This document shows positions 41,130 to 42,571 of a stretch of DNA of 64,000 nucleotides, one piece after another. A model generated the notes under the pieces. It had not been told where the DNA came from and did not search any database. It saw nothing but the letters and a program-made list of their open reading frames with translations. A program made the translations under genes and the position numbers. The number at the start of each line of letters is the position of its first letter. The stretch's first letter is position 1. Source of the DNA: Thermococcus siculi (lineage in GTDB: Archaea > Methanobacteriota_B > Thermococci > Thermococcales > Thermococcaceae); the NCBI RefSeq assembly GCF_002214505.1, contig NZ_CP015103.1, positions 1,054,001 through 1,118,000 on the forward strand, read 5' to 3'.

Positions 41130-41747
41130 TCACTTCTTCGAGAGCTCGTGCTCCACCAGCGCGACGATGTCGTTGTGGATGTCCTCGACGCTCGCGAGGG
41201 CGTTCACGATCCTCATCTCCGGGAAGCGCTCTGCCAGCTTGAGGTAGTTCTCGCGCACCCTCTTCTGGAGTTCGGCTATCCTGTCGAACTCGGTCTTTAT
41301 GCTCCTCCCGTTTATGCGCTTCATGCTCTCCTTGACCGGGAGGTCGAGGAGTATAACGAGGTCGGGCCTCACAGCGAAGCGGTTGAGGTCTATGAGCCAT
41401 TCCAGGTCGAGGCCCCTCGCCCACTGGTAGGCGAGTGAGGAGTAGAAGTACCTGTCCGAGATGACGATTTTACCGGCTTCTATTGACGGTTTTATCAGCT
41501 TCGCCACGTGCTCCGCCCTGTCCGCTGCGAAGAGGAGCGCCTCAGCCTCGTGGCTTATCCTGGCACCGTCGATTATGCCCTCCTTCCCACCGGTGAGGAC
41601 GAGCTTCCTGATGAGTTTGCCGAACGCGGTGTCCGTCGGTTCCTTGGTCAGAACGACCTCGTATCCTCTTTCTTCAAACCATTCCGCCAGAAGCTTTGCC
41701 TGAGTTGATTTACCGGCGCCATCGATTCCTTCGATAACAATGAACAT
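41130..41747 (-). CDS. tmk: Thymidylate kinase
   Basis: A 205-residue nucleoside monophosphate kinase: P-loop [18 protein letters not shown] motif [18 protein letters not shown] and lid-type region RSIKTEFDR. It converts dTMP to dTDP. ATG at 41747 starts [15 protein letters not shown], the usual archaeal opening; the open frame begins seven codons earlier, but its ribosome site is the GGGGGTGG further upstream. The gene has no co-directional neighbour closer than about 100 bases. Confidence 0.94.
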
Positions 41748-41853
41748 TCCCACAGGTGCCACCCCCAAAACGAACGGAGGGATGTCGCGGAGTACCTTTT
41801 TAACACTTTTCCGTGAGGATTTTTTTGAGAGGGTTTAAAAAGAACCCAAAAAA

Positions 41854-42561
41854 TCAGAGGTTCTTCTTCATGTGATCGAGCAACCTCCACATGCTTCCGA
41901 ACTCGAGCTGCTCACCGTCCCTGTGGAACTCGACGATGCCCTCCGGCCTGAATCTCAGCCCGAAGTCGTACTCGCCCTTCTGGAGCTTGTGGAGGAAGAC
42001 CTCCTTCGGCTTCGGCGGCAGGTAGCTGGTCATCATGTCGTTGATCAGCTCGACCTCGAAGCCGAAGTGGTCGCTCATGCGCGGGAAGAACAGCACCGCG
42101 GGGGTGTTCATGGCATCTACCAGGGCCTTGCCCTCAACGCGGAAGTTGTAGTGCTTGAAGACCTCGTGGAGGAAGTCGTCGAGGGCGTTGGGGTAGTAGA
42201 CCGTCGCGCCTATGTCGTTCGGGTGGGCCTCTATGAAGCTCCTGCTCTCCAGTATGGCGTCTATCTCGTCCCCGTCTATGCCGCTGACGTAAACGCGGAC
42301 GCCGTTGTAGTAGTAGACGTACGCCAGCGGGAGGCCCTTCCTGTGGGCGAAGTCCTTGAGGGCTATGAGGGGAATGAGCCTGACGTCCATTATGGTTGAT
42401 CCCGTGCTGACTATGCCAACGACCATGGCGCGCTTCCCGTACCTCGATATGGCCCTTCCGTCCCTTCCGACTATTATAGTGCCGTGGGATATCGTTCCTA
42501 TGGCCCTCCCGAGAAGGGCCAGCTCTTCGGGGTTGAACCTCGGGGAATGGTATACCTCCAT
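41854..42561 (-). CDS. Truncated, probably inactive phosphohexomutase relative
   Basis: A 235-residue protein that follows the start of phosphomannomutase/phosphoglucomutase (IIVGRDGRAISRYG, as in VGRDTR of the family) but lacks key parts. The phosphoserine loop (TASHNP) is replaced by LAYVYYYNGVRVYV. The metal-binding DGDxDR is missing; the equivalent stretch reads YDFGLRFRPEGIVEFHRDGE. Length is about half of the usual 450 residues. The ATG at 42561 follows GAGGTGG. It begins about ten bases after the stop of a sugar nucleotidyltransferase, so a regulatory or sugar-binding role for that enzyme is a fair guess, no more. Confidence 0.7.
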   Translation of the reverse strand: MEVYHSPRFNPEELALLGRAIGTISHGTIIVGRDGRAISRYGKRAMVVGIVSTGSTIMDVRLIPLIALKDFAHRKGLPLAYVYYYNGVRVYVSGIDGDEIDAILESRSFIEAHPNDIGATVYYPNALDDFLHEVFKHYNFRVEGKALVDAMNTPAVLFFPRMSDHFGFEVELINDMMTSYLPPKPKEVFLHKLQKGEYDFGLRFRPEGIVEFHRDGEQLEFGSMWRLLDHMKKNL

Positions 42562-42571
42562 CTCCACCACC

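Follow-up and report, generated by a model that had tools for sequence, protein, structure and literature searches.

Phosphohexomutases need all four of their domains around the substrate, and PGM5 (aciculin) is an inactive paralog of PGM1. The closest described relatives of the gene considered here are the archaeal alpha-D-phosphohexomutases (TK1108, PDB 9du5; the phosphopentomutase TK1777, PDB 9ix8; and the P. horikoshii protein 1wqa), which have in common with it the fold of domains I and II and the GRDGR motif, whereas their GTxGIRG block, phosphoserine loop, metal loop and domains III and IV are missing from it. PGM5/aciculin is comparable as a mutase relative thought to act without catalysis, but it is a full four-domain eukaryotic protein; herring PGM5 structures (6y8z, 6y8y) are among the VIA structure matches. 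The Aquifex aeolicus protein AQ1627 (PDB 2eiu, 2ehp) is a stand-alone short domain-I fold (VIA Z of 11.3 over 104 residues; Foldseek matches 33 and 34), although with about 125 residues it consists of domain I only. Fused proteins of 832–855 amino acids carry a nucleotidyltransferase (NT) and then a mutase-like part without phosphoserine loop, as in the Thermococcales gene pair described below, but as a single chain and with further mutase domains.

The proteins tested by Rashid and others in 2004 were reportedly recombinant. That work is cited in PMC11940775 for the activities of TK1108, TK1404 and TK2185 of Thermococcus kodakarensis, and, according to that paper, only the TK1108 product of these three showed PGM and PMM activity. 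PMC11940775 also gives TK1108, TK1404, TK1777 and TK2185 as the four T. kodakarensis genes annotated as phosphomannomutase, assigns the T. kodakarensis ortholog of the gene considered here to COG1109, and describes T. kodakarensis PGM as a tetramer built of dimers of dimers.

The window, meaning the whole stretch of 64,000 nucleotides that was analysed, comes from Thermococcus siculi (contig NZ_CP015103.1, positions 1,054,001 to 1,118,000), whose genome has 2,029,167 bases in one contig. Three neighbouring genes of the window matter for what follows:

41130 to 41768, minus strand: thymidylate kinase gene (tmk; PF02223, E = 3e-54), the constant downstream neighbour of the pseudo-mutase
41854 to 42561, stop codon included, minus strand: putative two-domain pseudo-phosphohexomutase of the TK1404 family (pseudo-mutase), 235 amino acids
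42572 to 43669, minus strand: sugar nucleotidyltransferase with left-handed beta-helix (NT), 365 amino acids (PF00483, E = 5e-58)

The likely start of the pseudo-mutase is the ATG at 42561 (MEVYHSPRF...), which is preceded by a GGTGGTG stretch; an alternative in-frame GTG at 42570, nine bases upstream, would add three residues (a 238-amino-acid reading). Some orthologs, those at loci L047 and L053 for instance, lack any start codon ahead of the ATG position. The NT lies upstream on the same strand, with ten bases between its stop codon and this ATG, and it reaches 261 bits against NF052502 (man1P_GTase_Rv), under the cut-off of 440. Beyond the NT, in divergent orientation, lies a gene for GTP-dependent PEP carboxykinase (NF003253, 701 bits with a cut-off of 504). 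Downstream, tmk follows in the same orientation in all 90 loci, some of which represent one genome taken from two collections, at a gap of 14–157 bases. This constant linkage may indicate an operon or simply conserved gene order. The tmk gap is merely 14–39 bases in six loci of one group.

The initial annotation had described this gene as a phosphohexomutase relative without catalytic loops, and both the sequence and the predicted fold bear this out. The domain I family PF02878 (PGM_PMM_I) matches residues 9–68 with 25.7 bits (gathering cut-off 22.5) and is found in all 45 scanned orthologs at E = 1 or better, and the domain II family PF02879 is reached by seven of the 45, with a best E of 0.0035. 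TIGR03990 (archaeal GlmM) gives 53 bits, with a cut-off of 439, over residues 12–198 of the 238-amino-acid reading, so domain II is present too. Among solved structures, the best sequence match is the T. kodakarensis phosphopentomutase (E = 6e-10, or 2e-11 with a profile of 45 orthologs), and identity to the full-length mutases of the window genome is 24–27%.

The AlphaFold2 model of the pseudo-mutase (pLDDT 83.7, pTM 0.80) contains two stretches of low confidence, residues 36–39 and 177–181 (pLDDT under 50), both within conserved segments. When this model was compared with known structures by Foldseek, the top 32 matches, down to E = 1e-4, were all mutases, headed by T. kodakarensis PGM (E = 7e-11, TM 0.72, 17% identity); the comparison of the predicted structure with mutases, proposed in the initial annotation as a check, thus turned up the expected fold and not an unrelated one. 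In VIA, the model aligned with B. subtilis GlmM over 235 residues (Z of 18.8, rmsd 2.9). Going by the aligned range, which in the mutases stops near residue 353, the last helix of the model may occupy the place of a domain III helix. As far as the predicted model goes, the pseudo-mutase belongs to the alpha-D-phosphohexomutase fold superfamily, with domains I and II.

One motif of domain I is retained and two loops are replaced, as placed by alignment:

42454 to 42468, minus strand: GRDGR (residues 32–36), the retained domain I block, which does not vary among the 45 aligned orthologs
42301 to 42321, minus strand: YVYYYNG (residues 81–87), in place of the phosphoserine loop TASHNPPxxNG, by alignment with the genome's own mutases
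41938 to 41961, minus strand: GLRFRPEG (residues 201–208), in place of the metal loop DGDADR, by the same alignment

The replacement of both loops at about half the usual length had also been claimed at the outset, and it holds for the family: among 61 distinct orthologs (the motif counts cover these and not all 93), neither the HNP of the phosphoserine loop nor the DGDxD of the metal loop occurs in a single one, G[LM]RF[RK]PxG occupies the metal-loop site in all 61, and the window protein has 235 amino acids. The N-terminal GTxGIRG block is likewise absent when the sequence is aligned with the genome's three full-length mutases, all three of which have TASHNP and DGDADR intact. The sequence ends after domain II, so that domains III and IV, with the sugar-binding and phosphate-binding loops, are absent. 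With both loops and domains III–IV gone, the protein is not expected to catalyse a mutase reaction in the known way. A search for motifs of another enzyme family gave nothing: only PF02878 passes its cut-off in Pfam, and no family does in NCBIfam.

A close ortholog (70–100% identity) is present in 93 of 94 Thermococcales genomes, the window genome among them, and in all 74 good ones (completeness of at least 90%, contamination of at most 5%), which excludes chance; other matches in these genomes are weaker and belong to full-length mutases. The single genome without an ortholog (G052) is 73% complete and has no match for tmk either, which fits an assembly gap, and the empty answer there proves nothing. 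A scan of genome contigs found 20 loci, all 20 in Thermococcales. No stand-alone short form was found by a profile scan of 160 other archaeal genomes (G195–G210 and genomes added later being left out), 22 of which have a match at 0.001, nearly all in open reading frames of 426–568 amino acids; the exceptions are one frame of 35 amino acids with stops and one fusion of 855 amino acids. Within the same class but outside the order, three of 21 genomes have weak matches. No relative of the pseudo-mutase was found in plasmids by tblastn at E = 0.01, or in viral contigs by a pattern scan.

Mean column identity among 45 orthologs is 82%, and 88 of 235 columns are invariant. Five segments (GRDGR..RYGKRA, DIGA..YYPNA, VDxMNTPA, NDM..Y.PPKP and GxRFxPxG) hold invariant residues at 65 of 109 positions, compared with 23 of 126 elsewhere, a ratio that is descriptive because the segment borders were drawn after the alignment had been viewed. 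The invariant residues include 22 charged ones, 11 of them Arg or Lys, and R33, R36, R40, K43, R44, R61, K184 and R203 lie in segments that match the former active-site region. Judged by the aligned orthologs, the pseudo-mutase has lost its catalytic residues while under strong purifying selection, and it is probably a pseudoenzyme.

At E = 1e-90, NT matches were obtained in 66 of 94 Thermococcales genomes and 56 of the 74 good ones, and in each of the 66 the NT stands beside the pseudo-mutase, within 20 bases in 65 of them; the 66th (G029) is a fragment with two stops at 419 bases. A few other NTs are cut off by a contig end, as in G083 and in G003, where the NT also has one stop. In 58 loci whose NT match reaches the C-terminus, a few of these being remnants, 14–18 bases separate the last NT codon and the pseudo-mutase ATG. 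Conversely, 18 of the 74 good genomes, T. kodakarensis (G024) included, gave no NT match at E = 1e-90, and all 18 keep the pseudo-mutase, as does G029 with its broken NT; of the loci in these 18, 16 have no NT and two have a remnant. G052, which has no pseudo-mutase, has no NT match. Counted over 90 pseudo-mutase loci (again with some genomes from two collections), the NT is present in 52, absent in 26, a remnant in eight and undecided in four; counted over 73 distinct pseudo-mutases with a decided NT state, the figures are 46 present, 22 absent and five remnant.

At least 10 changes of NT state are needed on a quickly built gene tree, parsimony giving no direction. Decayed NT remnants lie upstream of an intact pseudo-mutase at loci L025, L026, L028, L030, L040 and L149. 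Such remnants do give a direction, and the NT thus appears to have been lost repeatedly in Thermococcales. Divergence of the pseudo-mutase relative to tmk, with remnant and undecided loci left out, is 1.08 with the NT (1017 pairs) and 1.12 without it (226 pairs). Median pairwise dN/dS is 0.056 in NT-plus pairs (273) and 0.113 in NT-minus pairs (33), in both cases far below 1, with the groups set by eye and the NT-minus group including L045 and the remnant loci. The higher NT-minus median counts against the explanation favoured below, but it is weak evidence, as many pairs approach saturation of dS, and tmk-relative divergence was used instead. Since the pseudo-mutase is retained where the NT has gone, whatever preserves it does not require this particular NT, for which another nucleotidyltransferase of the cell might conceivably stand in.

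The pseudo-mutase is consequently not only the partner of the adjacent NT, although it may have a role together with it. Of the partnership supposed in the initial annotation, the part that stands is the constant placement, the NT being always beside the pseudo-mutase where it occurs; what does not stand is the NT as sole reason for the gene, in view of its retention without NT and of the equal tmk-relative divergence. Conservation of the gene pair, suggested there as a check, comes out divided in the same way: all 66 NTs adjoin, and 18 of 74 good genomes keep the pseudo-mutase without an NT match.

Proteins in which both parts are joined were found among the plasmid matches to the NT, the best five of which (H1–H5) were examined. 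They have 832–845 amino acids, with the NT and its beta-helix continuing into a mutase-like part, and come from Streptomyces and Sulfuricurvum plasmids and from Nonomuraea, the last as an unannotated open reading frame. Archaeal fusions occur in two of 396 genomes searched, as open frames of 855 (G283) and 848 (G289) amino acids. The phosphoserine loop is absent from all seven fusions examined, and the metal loop is absent from the five bacterial ones and partial in the two archaeal ones. At L084 (G289) and L085 (G283) the partial metal loop reads DSDADK and DLDADK and so resembles a transitional step in its loss. Pfam, applied to three fusions, placed domains I and II above the cut-offs in all three, domain III in two and domain IV, weakly, in one. 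The order of the parts matches the Thermococcales NT/pseudo-mutase pair, which is encoded as two genes separated by a stop codon and not as one chain. One further locus, L127 (G167), has a nucleotidyltransferase open frame of 535 amino acids, whose C-terminal extension fits neither the pseudo-mutase profile nor the fused-domain profile.

A descent of the pseudo-mutase from the fusions is not claimed. In the tree of mutase parts, a joint clade with the fusions has an AU p of 0.337, and clades with each of three single Thermococcales mutases are not rejected either (AU p of 0.262 to 0.357); the branch of the pseudo-mutase is very long (2.15 changes per column) and is placed, with weak support (91/38), beside one canonical mutase. 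In the tree of NT parts the AU p of a joint clade is 0.405; neither tree decides for or against common descent. Scored against profiles, the pseudo-mutase reaches a median of 72.9 bits with that of canonical archaeal mutases and 32.3 with that of the fused parts, the sets being unequal (19 and seven rows, respectively). In G283, the fused protein (2e-10) is a better match to the ortholog profile than the mutase of that genome (1e-4). In BLAST, the Nonomuraea fusion (E = 4e-7) is level with one mutase of the window genome (3e-7) and behind the other two. Convergent pairing of an NT with a dead mutase explains these findings no less well than a split fusion would.

As regards reported activity, the T. 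kodakarensis genome has four PF02878 genes, at 0.97, 1.23, 1.58 and 1.97 Mb, and the second is the half-size one. Their positions fit the order TK1108, TK1404, TK1777, TK2185, and the half-size gene adjoins the PEP carboxykinase gene, which is TK1405 according to PMC11921379 and PMC3561251. From this gene order and the adjacent TK1405 we infer that the T. kodakarensis ortholog is TK1404. Measured mutase activity would contradict the initial annotation; for TK1404, PMC11940775 reports PGM and PMM activity as absent and names these two activities only. The two negatives do not exclude other reactions for TK1404. The other PF02878 genes are full-length mutases, three in each of the two genomes examined (the window genome and T. 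kodakarensis).

What a mutase fragment of this kind is kept for can be answered in several ways. A decaying or non-functional fragment would account for the half length and the lost catalytic loops, but this has next to no credibility with us: order-wide conservation, 82% mean column identity and dN/dS medians of 0.056 and 0.113 refute it in practice. If the protein were instead a dedicated pseudo-subunit that regulates or feeds the adjacent NT, the detached counterpart of the fused proteins, one would readily understand why every one of the 66 NTs adjoins it, 65 of them no more than 20 bases away, why the distance to the ATG is as tight as 14–18 bases in 58 loci, and why the sole genome without pseudo-mutase has no NT match. 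The seven fusions with the same domain order, five of them from bacterial records and two from archaeal genomes, all lack the phosphoserine loop, and the G283 fusion outscores that genome's own mutase with the ortholog profile, all of which agrees with such a subunit. We nevertheless find it unlikely, as the 18 good genomes without an NT match and the one with a broken NT all keep the pseudo-mutase, its divergence relative to tmk is unchanged, canonical mutases score better than the fused parts, and the trees of both halves show no common descent with the fusions.

The conserved residues themselves invite the thought of a repurposed enzyme, whose cleft would have been remodelled to carry out a different reaction with a phosphorylated or nucleotide substrate. 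The 22 invariant charged residues, 11 of them Arg or Lys, and the new invariant blocks MNTPA and GxRFxPxG at old active-site positions are what such an enzyme might display; however, neither Pfam nor NCBIfam yields a motif of another enzyme family, and mutases are generally known to need four domains around the substrate, so we hold this doubtful. The retained domain I could alternatively make contacts with a full-length mutase such as TK1108 in a hetero-oligomer and so modulate its activity, in keeping with the tetrameric, dimer-of-dimers architecture given for T. kodakarensis PGM in PMC11940775 and with the three full-length mutases in both genomes examined. An identity of just 24–27% to the mutases of the window genome speaks against this, and we think it distinctly unlikely.

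The explanation that we favour, with a confidence that is evenly balanced and that covers the class of mechanism (any named partner receiving less), is that the pseudo-mutase descends from an archaeal phosphohexomutase of which domains I and II alone are left, and that it does not catalyse a reaction but works by binding. By alignment with mutases, the conserved segments of the old active-site region would form a fixed charged surface, which would hold a phosphorylated ligand or dock a partner protein, and the pseudo-mutase would serve sugar-phosphate or sugar-nucleotide metabolism as a subunit with a regulatory or scaffolding task. Its retention in genomes without the NT leads one to expect a main partner that is nearly universal in Thermococcales, or else a small metabolite. 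Candidate partners are a full-length mutase, another nucleotidyltransferase and thymidylate kinase, and the NT, where present, may be an additional client. More tentatively, and as a possibility that we would not yet lean on, the gene may encode an order-wide core protein of mutase domains I–II only, whose old active-site face has become a conserved surface for sensing a sugar phosphate, as the initial annotation had also considered, or for controlling sugar-nucleotide supply. The pairing of an NT and a dead mutase would then have more than one origin, in Thermococcales with the two encoded separately, in bacteria and other archaea with both in a fused chain.

The annotation of the gene is already known, TK1404 being annotated as a phosphomannomutase, and its lack of PGM and PMM activity has been reported, in both cases according to PMC11940775. 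In the open-access literature searched, which takes in few subscription papers, TK1404 is named in a single paper, and no description of the TK1404 family as a pseudoenzyme or of the fusions as mutase-dead was found. Compared with that literature, what is new is the recognition of a two-domain pseudo-mutase, its order-wide conservation independent of the NT, and the recurring pairing of an NT with a dead mutase.

T. kodakarensis is an archaeon with working genetics, and having no match for the neighbouring NT, it allows the two possible roles of the pseudo-mutase to be separated. The fusions caution against assigning a mutase function to proteins of this sort when the phosphoserine loop is missing. 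For the Thermococcales, the persistence of a half-size dead mutase throughout the order speaks for the mutase fold being put to regulatory or structural use.
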